A stretch of DNA of 64,000 nucleotides from Rubrivivax sp. Its GTDB lineage: Bacteria > Pseudomonadota > Gammaproteobacteria > Burkholderiales > Burkholderiaceae_C. The stretch covers positions 1-64,000 of the forward strand of contig JAHBZS010000021.1 of NCBI GenBank assembly GCA_019635285.1. The letters run 5' to 3'. Positions 33,833-64,000 of this stretch are shown here, in pieces; the first letter of the stretch is position 1; the number at the start of each line of letters is the position of its first letter. Below the pieces are notes generated by a model. It did not search any database. It was not told the origin of the DNA and saw only the letters and a program-made list of their open reading frames with translations. The translations under genes were made by a program, and so were the position numbers.

Positions 33833-34738
33833 ATGGCCGCAGCAAGATCGATCGCGTCGCTGACCCTGGGCTTCGGCCTGGTGTCGATTCCGGTGAAGCT
33901 GTATTCCGCCACCGAAAGCGCGAGCGCCGTGCGCTTCAACATGCTGGCCAAGGACGGCTCGCGCCTGAAGCAGCAATACGTGTCGGAGAAGGACCAGCGC
34001 GTGGTCGCCCGCGCCGACATGGTCAAGGGCTACGAGTTCGAGAAGGACCGCTTCGTGCTGTTCTCGCCCGACGAGCTGAAGGCGCTGGAAGAAGCCAGCA
34101 GCCCGGCCATCGAGATCATGGCCTTCATCCCCGAGAAGTCGGTCGACCCGCTGTACTACGACAAGGCCTACCTGATCGCGCCCGACAAGCGCGGCGGCAA
34201 GCCCTATGCGCTGCTGGCCGAGGCCATGCGCCAGAGCGGCCGCTGCGCGCTGGCCAAGTGGGCCTGGAAGGCGCGGCAGGTGGTGGTGCAGGTGCGGCCG
34301 GTGGAAGACGGCCTGGTGCTGCAGCAGCTGCTCTATGCCGACGAGGTGCGTTCGCTGAAGGACCTGCACATCGAGCCGGTGGCGGTGACGCAGGGCGAAC
34401 TGCAACTTGCGCTGCAACTCATCGACCAGATCTCCCAAGACGGCTACGACCCGACGCAGTACGTCGACGAAGAGAAGCAGCGCATCCTGGCGGCCATCGA
34501 CGCCAAGATCGCCGGCAAGCAGGTGGTGGCCTCGGCGCATGCCGAAGAGCCCAGCAGCGCGCAGGTCATCGACCTGATGGAGGCGTTGCGCGCCAGCCTG
34601 GGCAAGAAGGCCGCGCCGGCCCAACCGGTGGTCGTGGCACCGGCGGCCGCAGCCAAGCAACCCAAGGAACGCAAGGGGGCCAAGCGCGCCACGGCGCCCA
34701 AGGAAGCCGCCGCCGCCCCGGCCCGCGCCAGAAAGTGA
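33833..34738 (+). CDS. ku: Ku DNA end-binding protein
   Basis: Homodimeric ring that binds double-strand DNA ends and recruits LigD for non-homologous end joining. 301 residues. The bacterial Ku core is clear: SLTLGFGLVSIPVKLYSATE at the start, KGYEFEKDRFVLFSPDEL, and LLYADEVRSL. The C-terminal 40 residues are rich in Lys, Ala and Pro, the extended basic tail that in relatives aids DNA binding and LigD stimulation. Its stop overlaps the GTG start of the next gene (GTGA), so ku, the MerR/TPR gene and ligD form one translationally coupled operon. Confidence 0.95.
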   Translation: MAAARSIASLTLGFGLVSIPVKLYSATESASAVRFNMLAKDGSRLKQQYVSEKDQRVVARADMVKGYEFEKDRFVLFSPDELKALEEASSPAIEIMAFIPEKSVDPLYYDKAYLIAPDKRGGKPYALLAEAMRQSGRCALAKWAWKARQVVVQVRPVEDGLVLQQLLYADEVRSLKDLHIEPVAVTQGELQLALQLIDQISQDGYDPTQYVDEEKQRILAAIDAKIAGKQVVASAHAEEPSSAQVIDLMEALRASLGKKAAPAQPVVVAPAAAAKQPKERKGAKRATAPKEAAAAPARARK

Positions 34739-53339: not shown

Positions 53340-54413
53340 TCAGTCGGCGCTCGGCGACGCGGCTCCGGCCCGGTATTCGCCGGGGGTGCGGCCCGTCCAG
53401 CGCTTGAAGGCATGGCGAAAGCTCGCGGCGTCGCTGAAACCCAGGGCGGCGGCGATGTCGTCGACCTCGAGGAACGAGGTCGACAGGTAGTCGACGGCCA
53501 AGGCTTGGCGCACGCTCGCCAGCAGTTCCTTGTAGGTCGTCCCCTCCTCGTCGAGCCGTCGCCGCAGCGTCCGGGCGGTGATACACAGCACCGCCGCGAT
53601 CTCGTCGATGCCGGGAAAGCGGCCCGGTGTTCGCGTCAGTTCGGCGTATACCCGGCGGCTCGTGCCCGAGTTCCACTTGTGGTCCTCCAACAACTTGGCG
53701 CAGGCTGCCGAGACCTGGGTCGCGGCGATGGGGTTCGCGAATTGGGGTGGCCGGTCCAGCCACTCGACTGGGTAGTCCACTTGCGTGCGAGGCTGATCGA
53801 AGGCGACGGTGCATTCGAGCACCCGTTCCAACAGGCCGGCATGCCTCGGACGCGGCAACGCGAAGCCCGCGCGCGCGGGCACGCACCAGGCGCCCATCAC
53901 GTGCTTCGTAAGGCTGACGTGCGTGCCGAGCTGCATTTCCAGCAGCGCGCGAAACAGATCGGTATCGACGTCGGGCAGCGCGGCTTCGTCGAGGGTCGGG
54001 AGAACCCATGAGGCCACGTCGTGCTCCACCTCGAAGGCAATCCGCATGACCGGTGTGGCAAGTGCGTGATAGCGCACGGCGAGTTCGCAGGCACTGCGCA
54101 TCGACTCGGCGCACGCCAACGCATAGCCGTACATGCCGTAGTCGGTGAGGCGCATCCCGCCCCCCACGAGTGCGGCCCACCCCGCCTTTGGCGACAGCCT
54201 GCCGGCGTTACGGCACACCACGAGGAACTGATGGACCGAGATCCGAGTGTGGGCACTCGAGGCTTCGGCCTGCGACAGACTGGAGCCGGCCAGCAGCAGC
54301 TTGGTGTCCACCCCCAGTTCACTCAGGGCGCGCATGACGGCGTGCACCTTGAACGGCGCGTACCGCCTTTCGTGTAGCGCAAGCGCCGTGTTCGGTCTCG
54401 GTGTCGTACTCAT
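53340..54413 (-). CDS. AraC-family regulator with OruR/ArgR-type N-terminal domain
   Basis: 357 residues. An N-terminal Arabinose_bd-like domain (residues 20-220; SELGVDTKLLLAGSSLSQAE) and two C-terminal helix-turn-helices (PGIDEIAAVLCITARTLRRR, then EVDDIAAALGFSDAASFRHA and FKRWTGRTPGEYR). This layout is common beside lipid or amino acid catabolic genes. Its first 24 codons and about 55 upstream bases are repeated at 56484-56607. It probably controls the lipase or the acyl-CoA/PHA operon to its right; this is inference. Confidence 0.88.
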   Translation of the reverse strand: MSTTPRPNTALALHERRYAPFKVHAVMRALSELGVDTKLLLAGSSLSQAEASSAHTRISVHQFLVVCRNAGRLSPKAGWAALVGGGMRLTDYGMYGYALACAESMRSACELAVRYHALATPVMRIAFEVEHDVASWVLPTLDEAALPDVDTDLFRALLEMQLGTHVSLTKHVMGAWCVPARAGFALPRPRHAGLLERVLECTVAFDQPRTQVDYPVEWLDRPPQFANPIAATQVSAACAKLLEDHKWNSGTSRRVYAELTRTPGRFPGIDEIAAVLCITARTLRRRLDEEGTTYKELLASVRQALAVDYLSTSFLEVDDIAAALGFSDAASFRHAFKRWTGRTPGEYRAGAASPSAD

Positions 54414-54467
54414 GACGTGTCCTTAAGTCGCACTGTCGCCTTCCGCATTCTCCACACGGAGAACCCG
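54103..54467. repeat. Parent copy of a duplicated regulator segment
   Basis: Two parts of this segment, 54103-54155 (inside the AraC gene) and 54343-54467 (its 5' end and upstream region), recur almost identically at 56432-56484 and 56484-56607. The 187 bases between the two parts are missing from the second copy. Confidence 0.85.
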
Positions 54468-54480
54468 GGGCGGTTCAATC

Positions 54481-55504: not shown

Positions 55505-56380
55505 CTACCCCGCGTGCGCGCGCAGCCAGGCCACGATGTCGGCGGTGACCTCGTCGCGGTTGGTCTCGTTCAGGATTTCGTGGCGGCCACCCGGGTACAG
55601 CTTCACCGTCACATCGGCCAGGCCGGCATCGTGGTAGCGCTGGCCCAGCAACTGGATCAGCGCGCCGCCGCCGGCCAGCGGGTCGGCGTCGCCCGACGCG
55701 ATCAGCACCGGCAGGTCACGGCGGATGCCGGCCAGCCGCGCCGGGTCGGCCACCCGGGGTGCGGGTTCGAACAGGGCGGGAATCACATCGGCCGGCACGT
55801 CCCAGCCGCACCAGGGGTTCGCCACGTAGGCGTCCACCTCGGCGGGGTCGCGGGACAGCCATTCGTAGCCCGTGCGGTGCTCGAAGCCCGCGTTGAAAGC
55901 TTCGAGACCGGCGGGGGCGTCGGCGGGAGCGTTGGCCATGGCGGCGGCGAATGCGTCCAGCGCGGTCGAGCCGGACAGCACTACGCCCGCCCAGGGGGCG
56001 GCGTGGTCGAGCAGGGCCGCCTGCGCGGCGAACGAGCCCATCGAATGCCCGAAGAGGAACAGCGGCAGGCCGCCGTGCCGCGCGCGAAGCGCGGCGCCGA
56101 ACTGGACCACATCGGCGATCAGGCCGCCGAACCCGGCGGCACCGAAGTCGCCCAGCCGTCCGTTGGCGGTGCGTCCGTGCCCGCGGTGGTCGACCGCGTG
56201 GACCACGAAGCCGGCGGTGTTCAGCGCGTGGGCAAAGCGGTCGTAGCGCTCTCCGTGTTCGGCCAGCCCGTGGGCGATCTGCACCACGCCGGCGGGCTGG
56301 TCGTCCACGTCGGACCAGGTGTAGGTCACCACGCGGGTGCCGTCGGCGTCGGAGAGGAAGGAGGAAGTGGAGGTCGTCAT
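55505..56380 (-). CDS. Alpha/beta hydrolase, monoacylglycerol lipase/lysophospholipase type
   Basis: 291 residues of the serine aminopeptidase S33/lysophospholipase family. Motifs: VVQIAHGLAEHGERYDRFA, VVHAVDHRGHGRT, nucleophile elbow FLFGHSMGSFAAQAALLD, acid in LIASGDADPLAGG, His in YPGGRHEILNETNRDEVTA, so the triad is complete. It likely releases fatty acids from glycerides. The frame is open back to the AraC-remnant ATG at 56554, giving a possible 349-residue fusion; the ATG at 56380 is the natural start by homology. Confidence 0.87.
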   Translation of the reverse strand: MTTSTSSFLSDADGTRVVTYTWSDVDDQPAGVVQIAHGLAEHGERYDRFAHALNTAGFVVHAVDHRGHGRTANGRLGDFGAAGFGGLIADVVQFGAALRARHGGLPLFLFGHSMGSFAAQAALLDHAAPWAGVVLSGSTALDAFAAAMANAPADAPAGLEAFNAGFEHRTGYEWLSRDPAEVDAYVANPWCGWDVPADVIPALFEPAPRVADPARLAGIRRDLPVLIASGDADPLAGGGALIQLLGQRYHDAGLADVTVKLYPGGRHEILNETNRDEVTADIVAWLRAHAG

Positions 56381-56431
56381 CGTTTCATTCTCGGTTCGCT
56401 GTGGTGCTGCACGACCCAGGGAAAACGGCAA

Positions 56432-56554
56432 GACTCGGCGCACGCCAACGCATAGCCGAACATGCCGTAGTCGGAGAGGCGCATGCACCTTGAACGGCGC
56501 GTACCGCTTTTCGCGCGGCGCAAGCGCCGTGTTCGGTCTCGGTGTCGTACTCAT
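56432..56554 (-). pseudogene. Remnant of a second AraC-type regulator gene
   Basis: The ATG at 56554 opens MSTTPRPNTALAPREKRYAP, nearly identical to the N-terminus of the intact regulator at 53340-54413. After 25 codons the sequence jumps across a 187-base deletion into a distant part of the gene in the wrong frame, which then stops resembling it at 56432. The reading frame continues without a stop into the lipase gene. The upstream region of the regulator is also duplicated, to 56607. Confidence 0.85.
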
Positions 56555-56607
56555 GACGTGTCCTGGAATCGCACTGTCGCCTTCGGCAATCTCCACACGG
56601 AGAACCC
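56432..56607. repeat. Second, deleted copy of the regulator segment
   Basis: Matches 54103-54155 and 54343-54467 with few differences. Both copies have the same orientation, so they are direct repeats about 2.1-2.3 kb apart that bracket the lipase and the decayed genes and could recombine. Confidence 0.85.
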
Positions 56608-56665
56608 AGGGAAACTCCTTAGCCACTGTCCTCGGCGATGCGCATCCTGTCCTCGCCCGACATTT

Positions 56666-56747: not shown

Positions 56748-58379
56748 ATGGGCACTCGCCACTGGACCCAGTCGTACGCCGACATCCCCGCCGAGATCGA
56801 TGCCGATCGCTACGCGTCAATGGTCGATCTGTTGGACGCCGCGCTCAAGCGCCACGCCTCGCGTCCCGCGTTCAAGGCGTTCGGCCAGACCTTGAACTAC
56901 GCCGACGTCGACCGGCTGTCGCGCTCGTTCGCGTCCTACCTGCAGACCAAGCTGGGCGTACGCCAGGGCGACCGCGTCGCGGTGATGATGCCGAACCTGC
57001 TGGCGTTCCCGGTCACGCTGCTGGGCATCATGCGCGCCGGCGCGGTGCAGGTGAATGTGAATCCGTTGTACACGCCGCGCGAACTCGAGCACCAGCTCAA
57101 TGATGCCGGCGTCGAGACGATCGTCGTCTTCAACGGTTCGACGCCGACGCTGGCCGAGGTGCGCGCCAACACCGGCCTGAAGACGGTCATCACGGTCGGC
57201 GTCGGCGACGCCAGCGGCGCCACGCTGCCGAGCCCGCCGGTTGATGCACGGCTCGGCGAGTCGGTCTCCTTCGCCGAGGCGCTGGCCCAGGGCGGCGGGC
57301 TGCCGCTGCGGCCTGTGGCGCTGACCGGCGACGACCTGCTGTTCCTGCAATACACCGGCGGCACGACCGGGCTGTCCAAGGGCGCCGCGCTGTCGCACCG
57401 AAATCTCGTCGCCAACACCGAGCAGTTCAAGGCCTTCATGCCGGTGGCGGTGAAAGAGGGCGAGGAGGTGCTGGTGACGGCGATCCCGCTGTACCACATC
57501 TTCGCGCTGATGGTGTCGCTGAGCTATCTGTCGGTGGGCGCCGAGAACTGGCTCGTCGCCAACCCGCGCGACATGGATGGCTTCGTCGGCGTGTTGGCGC
57601 AGGCCAGGCCGACGGTCTTCATGGGCGTCAACACGCTGTACGGCGGGCTCGTGCAGCACCCCAAGCTCGGCGAAGTGGACTGGTCACGCCTGAAGATCGC
57701 GATCGGCGGCGGCGCTGCCGTGGTCGGGGCGGTGTCCGACCGCTGGAAGGCCATCACGGGCCACTTCATTCGCGAGGGCTACGGCCTGTCGGAAACCTCG
57801 CCGGTGGTGTCGTTCAACCCGGCCTACATCACCGAGTTCACCGGCACGACCGGCCTGCCGATGCCGTCGACCGACGTCAAGCTGCTCGACGACAAGGACC
57901 TCGAAGTGGGGCTGGGGCAGCCGGGAGAGATCTGCGTCAAGGGGCCGCAGGTGATGCGCGGCTACTGGGAGAAGCCCGACGCGAACGCCACCGCGTTCAC
58001 GAGCGACGGCTACTTCCGCACCGGCGACATCGGCGTCTTCGACGACAAGGGCTTCCTGAAGATCGTTGACCGCAAGAAGGACATGATCATCGTCTCGGGC
58101 TTCAACGTCTATCCGAACGAGGTCGAGGCCGTGGTCGCCAACTGCCCCGGCGTGGCCGAGGCGGCGTGCATCGGCGTGCCGCATGCGAAAACCGGCGAGG
58201 CCGTCAAGCTGTTCGTCGTCCGCCTGCCGGGCGCCGGCGTGACGGAGGCCGAGGTGATCGCGCATTGCCGTGCCGGCATGACCGGCTACAAGGTGCCGAG
58301 CGTCGTGCGCTTCGTCGACGCGCTGCCGAAATCCAACGTCGGCAAGATTCTCCGGCGCGAGCTGCGCAACGTCGATTGA
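56748..58379 (+). CDS. Fatty acyl-CoA ligase (AMP-forming)
   Basis: Activates a fatty acid to acyl-CoA with ATP, at the membrane or in the cytosol. 543 residues of the ANL superfamily: P-loop-like YTGGTTGLSKGAALSHRNL, EGYGLSETSPVVSFNP, hinge motif DGYFRTGDIGVFDDKGFLKI, and the C-terminal catalytic Lys in PKSNVGKILRREL. FadD-like by length and layout; chain-length preference unknown. An AGGAG ribosome site is present. First gene of the operon with PhaZ, MaoC and PhaC genes; the next starts 7 bases after its stop. Confidence 0.9.
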   Translation: MGTRHWTQSYADIPAEIDADRYASMVDLLDAALKRHASRPAFKAFGQTLNYADVDRLSRSFASYLQTKLGVRQGDRVAVMMPNLLAFPVTLLGIMRAGAVQVNVNPLYTPRELEHQLNDAGVETIVVFNGSTPTLAEVRANTGLKTVITVGVGDASGATLPSPPVDARLGESVSFAEALAQGGGLPLRPVALTGDDLLFLQYTGGTTGLSKGAALSHRNLVANTEQFKAFMPVAVKEGEEVLVTAIPLYHIFALMVSLSYLSVGAENWLVANPRDMDGFVGVLAQARPTVFMGVNTLYGGLVQHPKLGEVDWSRLKIAIGGGAAVVGAVSDRWKAITGHFIREGYGLSETSPVVSFNPAYITEFTGTTGLPMPSTDVKLLDDKDLEVGLGQPGEICVKGPQVMRGYWEKPDANATAFTSDGYFRTGDIGVFDDKGFLKIVDRKKDMIIVSGFNVYPNEVEAVVANCPGVAEAACIGVPHAKTGEAVKLFVVRLPGAGVTEAEVIAHCRAGMTGYKVPSVVRFVDALPKSNVGKILRRELRNVD

Positions 58380-58386
58380 GGCGCAC

Positions 58387-59295
58387 GTGACCGACGTTGC
58401 CATGGGCGCCGTCCCCGCGCCGCGTGCAGGCTCGCCCGAATCGCCGGTGGGCCGCAGCGAAGCCGTCGCCCACACCGCTGAGGCCGGCGGACATGCGCTC
58501 GAGATCCAGATGCTGCGGGTGGGCGCCCAGCTGCTGCGCGTCGGGCGCCAGGCGGGTTCGCGGCGCGGCGCAACGCCGTTGCTGATGTTCAACGGCATCG
58601 GCGGCAGCATCGAACTGCTCGAGCCGCTTGCACGCGCGATGCCCGCGCGCGAGGTCATCGTGTTCGATGTCCCGGGCGTCGGTCATTCGCCGATGCCGCG
58701 CCGGCCCTACCGGCTGCGCACGCTGGCGCGCTGGGCGCTCGGCGTGCTCGATCACTTCGGGCACGCGCAGGCGGACGTGCTCGGTGTCTCATGGGGCGGC
58801 GTGGCGGCGCAGGAATTCGCACGCACTGCGGGCGAGCGCTGCCGGCGGCTGATCCTGTGCGCGACGACCTCGGGCATGTTCATGCTGCCGGGGCATCCGA
58901 AGGCGATCGCGCGCATGGTCACGCCACGGCGCTACATGAGCAAGGCCTACGCAACCCAGGTCAGCGGCGACATCTACGGCGGCGACTTCCGCCGCCGGCC
59001 CGAGCTGGCGGCCGAGTTCATGAAGCACGTCAAGTGGCAGTCGCGCTGGGGCTATTACCTGCAGATCGGCGCCGCGACGGGTTGGACCAGCGTGCATTGG
59101 TTGTGCCGCCTGAAGCAGCGCACGCTGGTGATGGCCGGCCGTGACGACCCGCTGATCCACACCTTCAATGCCCGGCTGATGCGATCACTCATTCCGAACA
59201 GCGAACTCAAGCTGTTCGACTGCGGCCACCTTTTCTTGATGACGCGCCAAGAGGAGTCGGTACGCGCCATCAATGAATTCCTCGACGAAGCCTGA
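58387..59295 (+). CDS. PHA depolymerase-like alpha/beta hydrolase (PhaZ family)
   Basis: 302 residues from a GTG at 58387 (an ATG at 58402 is the alternative). It has the features of intracellular medium-chain PHA depolymerases: PLLMFNGIGGSIELLEPLAR, VIVFDVPGVGHSP, nucleophile elbow DVLGVSWGGVAAQEFA, CATTSGMFMLPGHP, acid in MAGRDDPLIH and His in FDCGHLFLM. It should release hydroxyacids from stored PHA, for reactivation by the ligase encoded just before it. A relative acting on other esters cannot be excluded. Confidence 0.82.
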   Translation: MTDVAMGAVPAPRAGSPESPVGRSEAVAHTAEAGGHALEIQMLRVGAQLLRVGRQAGSRRGATPLLMFNGIGGSIELLEPLARAMPAREVIVFDVPGVGHSPMPRRPYRLRTLARWALGVLDHFGHAQADVLGVSWGGVAAQEFARTAGERCRRLILCATTSGMFMLPGHPKAIARMVTPRRYMSKAYATQVSGDIYGGDFRRRPELAAEFMKHVKWQSRWGYYLQIGAATGWTSVHWLCRLKQRTLVMAGRDDPLIHTFNARLMRSLIPNSELKLFDCGHLFLMTRQEESVRAINEFLDEA

Positions 59296-59322: not shown

Positions 59323-59787
59323 ATGAGCACTGCACCCATGGGCCCCGCCGAGCTGGCGGACAAGGCCGGCCAAGAGATCGGCGTTTCATCGTGGATCGAA
59401 GTCGGCCAGCAGCGCATCGACGAATTCGCGCACTGCACCGAAGACCGTCAATGGATCCACGTTGATGTCGAACGCGCGGCCAAGGAGAGTCCGGCCGGCG
59501 GCACGATCGCGCACGGCTACCTGGTGCTCGCGCTGCTGGCGCCCACCGGCATGGAGATTCTCGTGCCGCGCGTGCGCGCCAAGCAGATCCTCAACTACGG
59601 CCTCGACAAGGTGCGATTCCCAGCGCCGGTGCTGGCGGGCAAGCGGGTGCGCAACCGCATCAAGCTCGCCGCCGCCGAGGACAAGGGCGGCGGCCGCTGG
59701 CTGCTTTCGCTCGAGAACACGGTCGAGATCGAGGGCGGCGACAAGCCGGCGCTGGTGGCCACCACGCTCGCGATGGTGTTCGGCTGA
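59323..59787 (+). CDS. MaoC-family (R)-enoyl-CoA hydratase-like protein
   Basis: 154-residue hot-dog-fold protein. The active-site segment is IDEFAHCTEDRQWIHVD (with Asp and His) followed by GGTIAHGYLVLALL. Family members such as PhaJ hydrate enoyl-CoA from beta-oxidation to (R)-3-hydroxyacyl-CoA, the monomer for PHA synthase. Position directly before phaC supports that role; it is closer to the NodN/MaoC-like set than to short PhaJ, so substrate range is open. Confidence 0.85.
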   Translation: MSTAPMGPAELADKAGQEIGVSSWIEVGQQRIDEFAHCTEDRQWIHVDVERAAKESPAGGTIAHGYLVLALLAPTGMEILVPRVRAKQILNYGLDKVRFPAPVLAGKRVRNRIKLAAAEDKGGGRWLLSLENTVEIEGGDKPALVATTLAMVFG

Positions 59788-59807: not shown

Positions 59808-61763
59808 ATGGCCACCAACACCGCCTCCGCGGGCCGCGCCCGCACCACCGCCGCGGCAGGCGCCAAGCGTGCCGCCGGCAAGACGGCTGCCGCCACCACC
59901 GCTGCCGTCCGCACCAAGGCCGCGGCGGGCGCCAGGCGCGTTGTTGGCAAGACCGCCACCACCGCCACCGCCGCCGCCACGCGCGTCGCGAAGAAGGCGC
60001 GCAGCGCCGCGGATACCGCCGCCAAGCTGGCCGGCAGCGCGAGCAAGGCCGGCCTGTCTGCGCTCGGCACGGCCAGCGATCTTGGTGGCCTCGTCGCCGA
60101 GGCCAGCCGCAACACGCTCGCGATCAACCCGCTGATCGGCTTGAACAAGCGCGACGTCGCAAGCGCGGCCGGCTCGCTGCTCAAGGCCGTCACCAGTACG
60201 CCGCGGCGGGCCAGCACGCACCTGGGCCGCTACGTGAAGGAGCTGGGCCAGGTCGCGAAGGGGAAGTCCGAGCTGGTGCCCGACCCCAAGGACCGGCGCT
60301 TCGCCGATCCGGCGTGGAAGAGCAACGCCCTGTACGCGCGCCTGATGCAGTCGTACCTGGCGACGCAGAAGGAGCTGTCGCACTTCATCGAACAGTCGGC
60401 ATTGAACAAGCTCGAGAAGGGTCGCGCGCACTTCTTCGCCTCGTTGATCACCGACGCGCTTGCGCCGAGCAACTGGGTGCTCGGCAATCCGGCGGCGGTG
60501 CGCAAGATCGTCGACACCGGCGGCGACAACCTCGTCAAGGGGCTGAAGAACCTGATCCACGACGCGCGCCACAACCACATGCTGCCTTCAATGGTCGACG
60601 CCACGCCGTTCAAGGTCGGCGAGACCATCGCCACCTCGCCCGGCCAGGTGGTGCTGCGCCACGAGATGTTCGAGCTGCTGCAGTTCGCTCCGACGACGCC
60701 GCAGGTGCACGCCCGCCCACTCGTGATGTCGCCGCCGCAGGTCAACAAGTACTACGCCATCGACCTGACGCCGGACAAGAGCCTCGTCAAGTGGGCGACC
60801 GACTCGGGCGTGCAGCTGTTCGTCGTCAGCTGGCGCAACCCGACGGTCGAGCACCGGCACTGGGGCCTGGACGACTACGTGCGTGCCCTCGATGCGGCGG
60901 TCGACGCGACGTGCAAGATCACCGGCAGTCCCGACGTCAACATGTGGGGCACGTGCTCGGGCGGCATGACGCTGGCGGCCTATCTGGCGTGGCTGGCTGC
61001 CACCGGCAAGCCCAAGGTCGCCAACACCACCTGGGCGGTGTGCGTGCTCGACACCGAGGCGGCGATCGAGGATTCGACGCTGGGCCTGTTCAACTCCCCG
61101 GCGACGATCCGTGCCGCCAAGGCGCGCTCGCAGCGCAAGGGCTTCGTCGATGGCGCGGAGATGGCGTCGATGTTCGCCTGGCTGCGCCCGAACGACCTGA
61201 TCTGGAACTACTGGGTCAACAACTACCTGCTCGGCAACCGCCCGCCGGCCTATGACGTGCTGGCCTGGAATGCCGACACCACCCGGCTGCCCGGCCAGTT
61301 CCACTGCGACCTGCTCGAGATGGTCGAGAAGAACCCGTACATCAACGCCTGCACCCTCGAAGTGCTCGGCGTGCCGGTCGACATGGGCCAAGTCAAGCTT
61401 GGCGCGTACGTGATCGCCGGCATCACCGACCACATCACGCCCTGGCGCGCGTGTTACGGCACGGCGCGGCTGTTCGGGCCCGAGACGACGTTCGTGCTGG
61501 CCAACGCGGGCCACCTGCAAAGCATGATCAACCCGCCGGGCGTGCCCAAGGCCTTCTTCTTCAGCGGCCCGGCCGCTACGGACGACCCGATGGCCTGGGC
61601 CGAGGGTGCCCAGCCGAGCAAGCAGGAAGGCAGCTGGTGGCCGCACTGGCGCGAGTGGATCAAGGGCAAGTCCGGCGAGCTGAAGCCTGCGCCCGCGAAG
61701 CTCGGATCGCGCAAGTACCGGCCCCTGGCGCCAGCACCTGGGACCTACGTGATGGAGCGCTGA
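59808..61763 (+). CDS. phaC: PHA synthase with a histone-H1-like N-terminal extension
   Basis: Polymerises (R)-3-hydroxyacyl-CoA into PHA at the granule surface. 651 residues. From about residue 90 it resembles class II (Pseudomonas-type) PhaC, with GKSELVPDPKDRRFADPAW. The lipase-like box is WGTCSGGMTLAAYLAWL with catalytic Cys383; Asp541 lies in GITDHITPW and His569 in NAGHLQSMI. Residues 1-80 are an extra segment almost wholly Ala, Lys, Arg, Thr and Gly in short repeats (AAAGAKRAAGKTAAATTAA), like histone H1 or the PhaF phasin tail, suggesting DNA or granule binding. About 90 residues longer than typical class II enzymes. No phasin or phaR gene is visible. Confidence 0.92.
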   Translation: MATNTASAGRARTTAAAGAKRAAGKTAAATTAAVRTKAAAGARRVVGKTATTATAAATRVAKKARSAADTAAKLAGSASKAGLSALGTASDLGGLVAEASRNTLAINPLIGLNKRDVASAAGSLLKAVTSTPRRASTHLGRYVKELGQVAKGKSELVPDPKDRRFADPAWKSNALYARLMQSYLATQKELSHFIEQSALNKLEKGRAHFFASLITDALAPSNWVLGNPAAVRKIVDTGGDNLVKGLKNLIHDARHNHMLPSMVDATPFKVGETIATSPGQVVLRHEMFELLQFAPTTPQVHARPLVMSPPQVNKYYAIDLTPDKSLVKWATDSGVQLFVVSWRNPTVEHRHWGLDDYVRALDAAVDATCKITGSPDVNMWGTCSGGMTLAAYLAWLAATGKPKVANTTWAVCVLDTEAAIEDSTLGLFNSPATIRAAKARSQRKGFVDGAEMASMFAWLRPNDLIWNYWVNNYLLGNRPPAYDVLAWNADTTRLPGQFHCDLLEMVEKNPYINACTLEVLGVPVDMGQVKLGAYVIAGITDHITPWRACYGTARLFGPETTFVLANAGHLQSMINPPGVPKAFFFSGPAATDDPMAWAEGAQPSKQEGSWWPHWREWIKGKSGELKPAPAKLGSRKYRPLAPAPGTYVMER

Positions 61764-61822: not shown

Positions 61823-63619
61823 ATGAGCACCTACACCGCCCCGATGAAGGACATGCAGTTCGTGCTGCACGAACTGGCGGGCCTCGACGCGATTGCCCGG
61901 CTGCCCGGCTACGGCGACGTGAGCACCGAACTCGTCGATGCGGTGCTCGAAGGCGCCGCCACCTTCTCCGGCGAGGTCTGGGGGCCGCTGAACAAGGTCG
62001 GAGACCAGCAGGGCCTGAAGCGCCACGACGACGGCCGCGTCACCACGCCCAAGGGCTTCGTCGAGGCGTATGCCAAGTTCGTCGAGTCGGGCTGGAACGG
62101 CCTGCGCTTCGACCCCGCCTTCGGCGGCCAGGGGCTGCCCAAGCTGGTCGACACCGCGGTGATGGAGATGTGGAACGCGTCGAACATGGCGTTCTCGATG
62201 GCGCCGCTTCTGACCCAGGGCGCGATCGAGGCGGTCTTCCTGCGCGGCAGCGACGCGCAGAAGCAGCGCTACCTGCACAAGATGGTCTCGGGTGAGTGGA
62301 CCGGCACGATGAACCTGACCGAGCCGCAGGCCGGTTCCGACCTCGGGCTCATCCGCAGCAAGGCCACGCCCGAGGGCGATCACTACCGGATCCAGGGCCA
62401 GAAGATCTTCATCAGCTTCGGCGAGCACGACCTCACCGACAACATCGTCCACCTGGTGCTCGCGCGCACGCCCACGGCGCCGGAGGGCGTCAAGGGCATC
62501 TCGCTGTTCCTGGTGCCCAAGTTCCTCGTCAACGACGACGGCTCGCTCGGCGAGCGCAACGACGTGCGCTGCGTGTCGATCGAACACAAGATGGGCATCC
62601 ACGCCAGCCCGACCGCGGTGCTCGCGTTCGGCGACGGCCCGGGCGCGATCGGCTACCTGATCGGCGAGGAGAACCGCGGTCTCGAATATATGTTCATCAT
62701 GATGAACGAGGCGCGCTTCGGCGTCGGCGTGCAGGGGCTGGGCGTGGCCGAGCTCGCCTACCAGCAGGCCCTGGCCCATGCCAAGGATCGCGTCCAGGGC
62801 AAGGACGCCACGGCGCCCAAGGGCCCGAGCGTGCCGATCATCCGCCACCCCGACGTGCGGCGCATGCTGATGAGCATGAAGTCGCGCGTCGAAGCGATGC
62901 GCGCGCTGGCCTATGTGGTGGCGGCGATGTTCGACCAGGCGCACCGTGCCAGCGACGACGCGGAACGCAACGCAGCGCATGCCGGCGTCGACCTGCTGAT
63001 CCCGATCCTCAAGGGCTGGTGCACCGAGACCGGCGTCGAGGTGGCTTCGACCGGTATCCAGATCCACGGCGGCATGGGTTTCATCGAGGAGACCGGCGCG
63101 GCGCAGCACCTGCGCGACGCGCGCATCACCACGATCTACGAAGGCACCACGGGCATCCAGGCCAACGACCTGATCGGGCGCAAGGTGCTGCGCGACGGCG
63201 GGCGCTCGATGCAGGCGCTGGTGTTGCAGATCGACGCCGTGTGCGAGCAGCTCGAGGCCGGCGACGACGCTCAGCTTCACGCGATCGGCGCACGCCTGCG
63301 CGAGGGTTCGAAGAGCCTCGCCGACAGCGTGCGCTGGATTCTGGCGACCGGCATGCAGGACCTCAACGCGGTGCTGGCTGGCGCGGTGCCGTTCCTGCAC
63401 CTGTGCGGCGTGGTGTGCGGCGGCTGGCAGATGGGGCGCGCCGCGCTGGCGGCGCAGCGCAAGCTTGCGGCCGGCGACGGTGATGCGGCCTTCTACCGCG
63501 CCAAGGTCGCCACCGCGCGCTTCTTCGCCGACCAGGACCTGTCGCGGGCGCGCGGGCTCGCCGAGGCGACCATGCACGCCGGCGCCAGCACGATGGCGCT
63601 CGCCGAAGAACAGTTCTGA
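61823..63619 (+). CDS. Acyl-CoA dehydrogenase, long (FadE/DmdC-like) type
   Basis: 598 residues, longer than classical acyl-CoA dehydrogenases because of N- and C-terminal additions (the Acyl-CoA_dh_N and C-terminal DUF type found in DmdC and bacterial FadE5-like enzymes). Motifs: NLTEPQAGSDLGLIRSKA, IFISFGEHDLTDNIVHLVLA, EENRGLEYMFIMMNEARFGV, QIHGGMGFIEETGAAQHLRD and catalytic Glu in TTIYEGTTGIQANDLIGRK. It should oxidise acyl-CoA and reduce ETF, whose beta subunit is encoded next. Start at 61823 by homology. Confidence 0.9.
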   Translation: MSTYTAPMKDMQFVLHELAGLDAIARLPGYGDVSTELVDAVLEGAATFSGEVWGPLNKVGDQQGLKRHDDGRVTTPKGFVEAYAKFVESGWNGLRFDPAFGGQGLPKLVDTAVMEMWNASNMAFSMAPLLTQGAIEAVFLRGSDAQKQRYLHKMVSGEWTGTMNLTEPQAGSDLGLIRSKATPEGDHYRIQGQKIFISFGEHDLTDNIVHLVLARTPTAPEGVKGISLFLVPKFLVNDDGSLGERNDVRCVSIEHKMGIHASPTAVLAFGDGPGAIGYLIGEENRGLEYMFIMMNEARFGVGVQGLGVAELAYQQALAHAKDRVQGKDATAPKGPSVPIIRHPDVRRMLMSMKSRVEAMRALAYVVAAMFDQAHRASDDAERNAAHAGVDLLIPILKGWCTETGVEVASTGIQIHGGMGFIEETGAAQHLRDARITTIYEGTTGIQANDLIGRKVLRDGGRSMQALVLQIDAVCEQLEAGDDAQLHAIGARLREGSKSLADSVRWILATGMQDLNAVLAGAVPFLHLCGVVCGGWQMGRAALAAQRKLAAGDGDAAFYRAKVATARFFADQDLSRARGLAEATMHAGASTMALAEEQF

Positions 63620-63634: not shown

Positions 63635-64000
63635 ATGAAGATCCTCGTCGCCGTCAAGCGGGTCGTCGACTACAACGTCAAGGTGCGCGTCAAGGCCGAC
63701 GGCACCGGCGTGGACATCGCCAACGTCAAGATGAGCATGAATCCCTTCGACGAGATCGCCGTCGAGGAGGCGGTGCGGTTGAAGGAAAAGGGCGTGGCGA
63801 GCGAGATCGTCGCCGTCTCGTGTGGCGTGGCGCAATGCCAGGAGACGCTGCGCACCGCGATGGCGATCGGCGCCGACCGCGGCATCCTGGTCGAGACGGG
63901 CGACGAGCTGCAGCCGTTGGCGGTGGCCAAGCTGTTGAAGGCACTGGTGGAGCAGGAGAAGCCCGCGCTGGTGATTCTCGGCAAGCAGGCGATCGACGAC
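63635..64000 (+). CDS. etfB: Electron transfer flavoprotein beta subunit (partial)
   Basis: The first 122 codons of etfB, cut by the window end. [20 protein letters not shown] is the typical N-terminus, followed by [18 protein letters not shown] and [13 protein letters not shown]. The beta subunit binds AMP and, with EtfA, FAD, taking electrons from acyl-CoA dehydrogenases to ETF-quinone oxidoreductase. It starts 15 bases after the dehydrogenase stop. etfA is expected just outside the window. Confidence 0.93.

Follow-up and report, generated by a model that had tools for sequence, protein, structure and literature searches.

Several proteins have been described that connect storage granules to the nucleoid or carry domains suited to that purpose. 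The PhaC2 synthase of Cobetia is a class I enzyme with a 380-aa basic, disordered C-terminal extension that gives HC2 hits and, in some sequences, contains AAKP motifs; its authors speculated that the extension may attach to DNA and could perhaps substitute for PhaM as the anchor of the carbonosome (PMC8686332). In Pseudomonas, PhaF (PF05597) is a granule protein with a disordered DNA-binding domain and a role in granule placement (PMC3574117), and its AAKP-bearing tail sits at the C-terminus of a phasin (PMC8686332). In Ralstonia eutropha, PhaC and the granule are connected to DNA by PhaM, a phasin-like protein distinct from the synthase to which it binds (PMC3556143), while the histone H1-like, disordered Lys/Ala tail of Pseudomonas aeruginosa AlgP is needed for granule spacing (PMC9239181). 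The granule tethers named in a 2025 review, PhaM, PhaF, PhaH and AlgP, are all non-synthase proteins (PMC13052382).

The window analysed here, a DNA stretch of 64,000 nucleotides, encodes a PhaC with a basic segment at its N-terminus. Throughout, G000 denotes the genome to which the window belongs, C14 the window's contig, and other G and L numbers the genomes and loci compared. Like Cobetia PhaC2, the window PhaC is a synthase bearing a long disordered basic extension, but it is class II-like, its tail is shorter and N-terminal, and the tail has neither AAKP motifs nor a Pfam hit; it does not belong to the Cobetia type, which combines a class I core with a C-terminal basic extension. It differs from PhaF in that the synthase itself carries the tail, at the N-terminus and with another composition, and from PhaM in that the basic segment is fused on. 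AlgP differs in acting on polyphosphate granules, in having KPAA repeats and in not being a synthase.

A preliminary description of this DNA spoke of a new way of partitioning storage granules, which is too strong, since Cobetia PhaC2 had already prompted this idea in 2021 (PMC8686332). The general idea is thus already in print, the Cobetia paper alone dealing with a DNA-binding synthase extension in the literature searched (titles, starts of abstracts and some passages). A PhaC with a basic N-terminal tail, as found in the class II-like clade described below, was not found in print in that literature, preprints and most subscription journals lying outside the search.

Pseudomonas umsongensis GO16 has been reported to possess an extra class II PHA synthase without PHA genes nearby, in contrast to the window phaC, which lies within a PHA cluster (PMC8601165). 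This extra synthase probably belongs to the same clade as the window PhaC: P. umsongensis DSM 16611 carries a clade member (L062) in which 47 residues precede the conserved anchor (residue 102 of the window PhaC). The word 'N-terminal' has 0 occurrences in the main text of the GO16 paper (PMC8601165).

A class II-like synthase preceded by a basic tail

The synthase gene and its parts are as follows.

59808..61763, + strand: phaC, class II-like PHA synthase, 651 aa (PF07167 1.4e-59, PF00561; TIGR01839; structure matches)
59808..60077, + strand: basic Ala/Thr/Lys/Arg-rich N-terminal tail of PhaC, residues 1-90, predicted disordered (charge, pLDDT, no Pfam); 59808-60047, residues 1-80, is the stretch named in the preliminary description
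60111..61760, + strand: conserved PhaC core, beginning at the NTLAINPL anchor (residue 102) and including C383, D541 and H569 (28-sequence alignment)

Both PhaC_N (PF07167) and an alpha/beta hydrolase domain (PF00561) with a Cys-Asp-His triad are present. The catalytic residues Cys383, Asp541 and His569 were placed correctly by the preliminary description and are invariant across the 28 aligned homologues. The class II model TIGR01839 scored best of three, with 688.9 bits against a curated NCBIfam cut-off of 855.4, compared to 498.9 bits for the class I model (cut-off 622.65) and 80.8 for class III; since the TIGR01839 score lies under its cut-off, 'class II-like' is the right wording. TIGR01839 covers PhaC residues 94-651 (profile positions 8-560 of 560), and because its alignment begins at residue 94, about 90 PhaC residues precede what the model describes. 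Pseudomonas PhaC1 and PhaC2 are 44-49% identical to the window PhaC, which falls in its own 57-row clade beside them in a tree built without a class I outgroup. The AlphaFold model, made from an alignment of 28 sequences, had a mean pLDDT of 71.2 and matched the solved PhaC structures 9knj, 6k3c, 5t6o and 5xav (Aeromonas, Chromobacterium, Cupriavidus); sequence alignment with the PDB PhaCs begins only at residue 153. PhaC may polymerise medium-chain monomers, to which the adjacent TIGR02240 depolymerase (over its cut-off) and the MaoC-like gene point only indirectly.

The phaC open frame begins at 59466, and ATG 59808, with AAGGA 9 bases upstream, is the only ATG, GTG or TTG ahead of the conserved core; a wrong start codon was rejected on this ground. 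The next in-frame starts, TTG 60141 and GTG 60234, both lie within the conserved N-terminal region. GC content by codon position was 0.66/0.79/0.88 for residues 1-93 and 0.62/0.48/0.94 for the core, both peaking at position 3. Measured against L050 and L092 (97-98% core identity), dN/dS was 0.62 for residues 1-85, 0.05 for residues 86-150 and 0.11-0.14 for the core. The tail thus behaves as a quickly evolving coding stretch attached to one under very strong constraint, and the case for its translation in vivo is good but indirect.

Composition and predicted disorder of the tail

PhaC residues 1-85 comprise A34 T14 K8 R8 G7 S5 V4 L2 D1 N1 M1, with no Glu and no Pro, for a net charge of +15. The Lys/Arg-bearing extension that had been noted ahead of a complete PhaC is therefore real, with 8 Lys and 8 Arg compared to one acidic residue. 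Its make-up of Ala, Thr, Lys, Arg and Gly was likewise confirmed, while the AAKP-type likeness was not, as AAKP, KPAA and PAKKA each occur 0 times in the tail and in the whole PhaC protein. Residues 1-101 hit no Pfam family at E<=1, DNA-binding families, HC1/HC2 and linker histone included, and PhaC has no PF05597 phasin domain at E<=0.01. The term 'histone-H1/PhaF-like' thus expresses a likeness of composition, not homology, and Pfam-level homology of the tail to histone H1 was ruled out. AlphaFold gave a pLDDT below 50 over residues 1-90, a value that partly reflects the shallow alignment of 28 sequences, some core loops being low too; residues 59-89 were drawn as a low-confidence helix.

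A strict basic-tail filter was applied to 203 called proteins of at least 100 aa (309 kb of G000, window included), obtained with a crude gene caller that skipped the phasin genes downstream (L136). Four proteins passed, namely the window PhaC, Ku (PF02735), an HU/IHF-family protein (PF00216) and one probably spurious ORF, such that two of the three other passers (Ku and HU/IHF) are DNA-binding. Ku, encoded at 33833-34738 of the window, has a Lys/Ala-rich C-terminal tail. Charge alone is not rare: ~5% of the 202 other called proteins reach at least +14 in residues 2-86, and 19 of 164 called proteins contain, anywhere, an 85-aa stretch that basic, figures that miscalled starts inflate to some extent. 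The tail is distinctive for its Lys and near lack of acidic residues within an Ala/Thr-rich terminus, and for its conservation.

Distribution and evolution of the tail

Relatives were gathered by the PhaC core, not by the tail. Sources were a scan of named contigs (53 loci), which used two core peptide patterns and so favours close relatives, 60 genomes of the genus, 299 of the family, 349 of the order and 369 of the class, and nine genomes from which named loci came. Within the genus, 6 of 60 genomes, G000 included, had a PhaC relative at least 80% identical. At E<=1e-150, relatives were found in 10 of the 299 family genomes (including G197, whose sole relative is tail-less and 50% identical), in one of the 349 order genomes, which was G000 itself, and in 2 of the 369 class genomes, G000 and one with a tail-less 47-48% relative. 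Duplicate removal left 86 distinct proteins, 72 of them at 43.5% identity or more; the 14 below 43.5% were dropped before tails were counted.

Homologue starts were picked by an ATG/Shine-Dalgarno score. Among 58 distinct relatives whose core identity was 55% or higher, 55 had at least 30 residues ahead of the anchor, compared to 0 of 14 remoter PhaCs at 43.5-55% identity. The three exceptions were L040, which is cut by a contig end, L097, which has 23 residues, and L107, whose start is ambiguous and whose basic open frame runs on upstream of that start. The clade comprises Variovorax, Roseateles, Ideonella, many MAGs, an additional kind of Pseudomonas PhaC and one Steroidobacteraceae MAG, with tails of 31 to 102 residues before the anchor. 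Five of the Pseudomonas genomes with a clade member also yielded other class II PhaCs; these, which we take to be PhaC1 and PhaC2, have 15 residues before the anchor. Most Pseudomonas clade tails are short (~30 residues, net +4 to +9), and their DNA binding may be weak. L096 has 34 residues before the anchor with a net charge of 0. G000 also holds a second PhaZ-MaoC-PhaC set (C10:58947-60617; L004, L137), whose PhaC is 72% identical to the first, has 61 residues (net +5) before the anchor and fails the strict tail filter.

On the core tree the tailed group forms one clade (57 rows, SH-aLRT 100, L040 left out), and tail presence or absence requires two changes, L107 not counted; the tree was built by a quick method, leaves 23 of its 68 inner branches unsettled and joins long branches in places. 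Because the short-tailed L097 branches at the base of the clade, one gain plus a loss and two gains are indistinguishable. As judged from this tree, the tail is an inherited trait of the clade, apparently gained at or near its base.

Leaving out the initial Met and the 16 residues adjoining the anchor, the 55 tails amount to 2332 residues with a composition of Ala 24.2%, Arg 13.5%, Thr 13.3%, Lys 10.4% and Asp+Glu 5.0%, with no Phe, Trp, Tyr or Cys. All 55 tails carry a net positive charge, which falls below +4 in just one. At a GC content of 62-72%, random coding predicts 13-16% Arg and just 1.0-1.9% Lys, so that base composition alone does not explain the tails, and GC drift as their sole cause was rejected. 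Charge is kept while the letters of the tail turn over fast.

The PHA gene cluster and its phasins

The genes around phaC, and two further genes on contig C14 past the window, are listed below.

56748..58379, + strand: long-chain acyl-CoA ligase, FadD-like (PF00501 1.3e-88; NF005463 and NF006523 both under cut-off)
58387..59295, + strand: PhaZ, intracellular poly(3-hydroxyalkanoate) depolymerase (TIGR02240 269.7 bits, over the cut-off of 250.6)
59323..59787, + strand: MaoC-like hydratase directly upstream of phaC, by inference PhaJ-type (PF01575 4.3e-19)
61823..63619, + strand: acyl-CoA dehydrogenase directly downstream of phaC, 598 aa with the MSTYTAPMKDMQF methionine as its presumed start (PF12806, PF00441, PF02770, PF02771)
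63635..64000, + strand: first part of etfB (ETF beta), which runs past the window end (PF01012 3.1e-42 on L136)
contig C14 67716-68279, + strand: Phasin_2, 187 aa (PF09361 4.2e-8, over cut-off)
contig C14 69469-70002 (L136 5970-6503), + strand: 177-aa protein with a Lys/Arg-rich C-terminal tail that passes the tail filter

The cluster reads as a route from fatty acids to PHA, judging by its gene content. PhaZ, MaoC and PhaC occur in this order at 15 of the 17 non-Pseudomonas loci with PhaC examined; in L043 and L045, PhaZ adjoins PhaC and MaoC lies elsewhere on the other strand. The acyl-CoA ligase (at least 67% identity) and ETF genes are found in some non-Pseudomonas loci. Seven of eight Pseudomonas loci have none of these neighbours, and L054 has distant acyl-CoA dehydrogenase and ligase matches. 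The 64-kb window contains no tRNA genes. Upstream of the cluster, two stretches of ~131 bases, 54340-54470 and 56481-56611, each match the other's counterpart in relatives at ~91-92%. The former extends across the 5' end of an AraC-type gene, and the latter, situated toward the 5' end of the hydrolase ORF 55505-56626, reads like the AraC N-terminus; the pair is probably a duplicated fragment.

The window ends at 64000, within etfB and 2.2 kb past phaC, and the genes of C14 continue in the same direction. Up to 71014 these encode ETF-QO, EtfA, an HTH protein, Phasin_2, PPase, dodecin, the basic-tailed 177-aa protein, a PhaI-like protein and a TetR regulator, the last placed like PhaD. The impression in the preliminary description that no phasin gene lay nearby was therefore an artefact of the window edge, as the Phasin_2 gene begins 6 kb downstream on the same contig. 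Its GTG start overlaps the stop of the HTH gene, and its product has a Lys/Ala/Pro-rich N-terminus and passes the tail filter. The 177-aa protein, which had no Pfam or NCBIfam match and is encoded between dodecin and the PhaI-like phasin, is possibly an undescribed granule protein. The PhaI-like protein matches PF05597 just under cut-off (5e-6) and TIGR01837 weakly; its N-terminus is basic but fails the tail filter. Elsewhere in the same genome, C28 encodes a PhaF-type phasin (TIGR01837 over cut-off) with a Lys/Ala/Pro-rich C-tail and C56 a second Phasin_2 with a Lys-rich N-tail.

A PF05597 phasin over cut-off was present in all 17 other clade-bearing genomes tested, the phasin searches having left out four (G254, G1063, G1064 and G1067). 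In 15 of the 17 this phasin has a basic C-tail, as scored by a filter that reaches slightly further from the C-end than that used for the 203 proteins; in G1066 it has a basic N-tail, and G283 has a basic-tailed Phasin_2 instead. G255, which carries the neutral-tailed L096, is one of the 17. The proposal that the synthase tail replaces a phasin was accordingly refuted for the genomes tested, G000 and the 17 others. The tailed phasins of clade genomes instead make the synthase tail an addition to phasins, and their presence in the same genomes means that any tether role of the synthase tail could be redundant.

A putative mobile PHA island

From 53162 to 71425, past the window end, runs a block that contains the entire PHA cluster and matches L039, a locus of another species (G017), at 99.4% identity, compared to just 78.8% identity between the PhaF loci of G000 and G017. 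The left end of this block falls at the same base, within two, in G000, G017, G046 and G283. The flanks gave no BLAST match where compared (L039 vs L081, L039 vs C14) and differ by eye for G283. The assemblies of G000, G017 and G046 are fragmented; the G283 stretch lies within a 4.1-Mb contig, and there a DDE transposase is found just beyond the right end of the match. The two island ends share no direct or inverted 12-mer within 300 bases. In G283, which is of another genus, C1:2914442-2951300 (L198, L199) contains two partial or fuller copies of the cluster ~21 kb apart; their PhaCs, both tailed, share 98% and 80% identity with that of the window. The PHA cluster looks to have moved horizontally as a unit of ~18.3 kb and is a likely mobile PHA island.

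We also considered an extended version of this idea, which we regard as unlikely. The 18.3-kb transferable island would bring its own nucleoid attachment, in the form of basic tails on the synthase and on two to three small proteins, and would ride the recipient chromosome without a host PhaF or PhaM; such tails would be recurrent, having arisen independently here (N-terminal) and in Cobetia (C-terminal).

Proposed role of the tail

We propose, as a tentative reading that we hold to be somewhat short of probable, that PhaC is a functional-looking class II-like synthase whose tail gives affinity for a polyanion, DNA being the likeliest, and that granules are thereby kept on the nucleoid alongside phasins. 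The tail would confer on the granule-starting PhaC a loose, sequence-independent affinity, most probably for chromosomal DNA, and from the moment of initiation this affinity would hold the enzyme and its nascent granules at the nucleoid. The tail would work together with PhaF-type and other basic-tailed phasins, not instead of them. An in-frame, strongly basic tail that is predicted to be disordered and is basic clade-wide fits polyanion (DNA) binding. Nucleoid tethering is plausible by analogy, the composition and disorder of the tail being what points to DNA binding and granule positioning, and since PhaM, PhaF and AlgP, whose domains are likewise histone-like or basic, are believed to work in this manner, the nucleoid is the most probable target (PMC3556143, PMC3574117, PMC9239181, PMC13052382).

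The tail might instead work by its charge away from the nucleoid, by setting granule surface charge, by binding polyphosphate or RNA, or by aiding solubility of the enzyme or its clustering at the granule. Tail composition, disorder and missing aromatics are all compatible with a role involving any polyanion, several granule proteins of G000 have basic ends, and both polyphosphate and surface charge are discussed as possibilities for the KPAA tail in the AlgP paper (PMC9239181). However, the known granule proteins with such tails, PhaM and PhaF, are reported to bind DNA, and our Pfam scans gave no polyphosphate-specific domain; we consider this alternative rather unlikely, if a serious one. 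Less is to be said for a regulatory or docking segment that engages an acidic partner, a phasin or a regulator, and tunes the synthase as PhaM does PhaC1 in Ralstonia eutropha, where PhaM binds PhaC1 (PMC3556143) and PhaC is activated by PhaM (PMC13052382). The very conserved tail-core junction (residues 86-150, dN/dS 0.05 vs two close relatives) would suit such a function, but the tail letters turn over fast (dN/dS 0.62) and tail lengths vary from 31 to 102 residues. Docking segments usually retain some sequence, and we judge this explanation quite improbable.

The fast evolution and variable length of the tail, and the fact that stretches basic by net charge alone are not rare among called proteins, would also be expected if the tail were functionless low-complexity drift of a GC-rich genome. 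Drift, however, predicts ~13-16% Arg and 1-2% Lys, compared to the observed 10.4% Lys and 24% Ala, and the tails are net positive in 55 of 55 cases across Burkholderiales and Pseudomonas, making this account very unlikely. It is extremely unlikely, finally, that translation begins near the core and that the tail is never made. The Steroidobacteraceae relative (L085/L107) lacks an ATG before its basic stretch, and the agreement among homologue starts is partly circular, given the scoring used to choose them, but the window gene offers no start other than ATG 59808 before its core, TTG 60141 and GTG 60234 being inside the conserved region.

If the granule-starting enzyme is itself bound to the nucleoid through its tail, then both the birthplace of granules and their inheritance could be set at initiation. 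The clade supplies natural tail variants, 31 to 102 residues long, and, should the proposed role hold true, adding a tail to a synthase or removing it would be an easy way to control how many granules form in bioplastic strains and where they lie.
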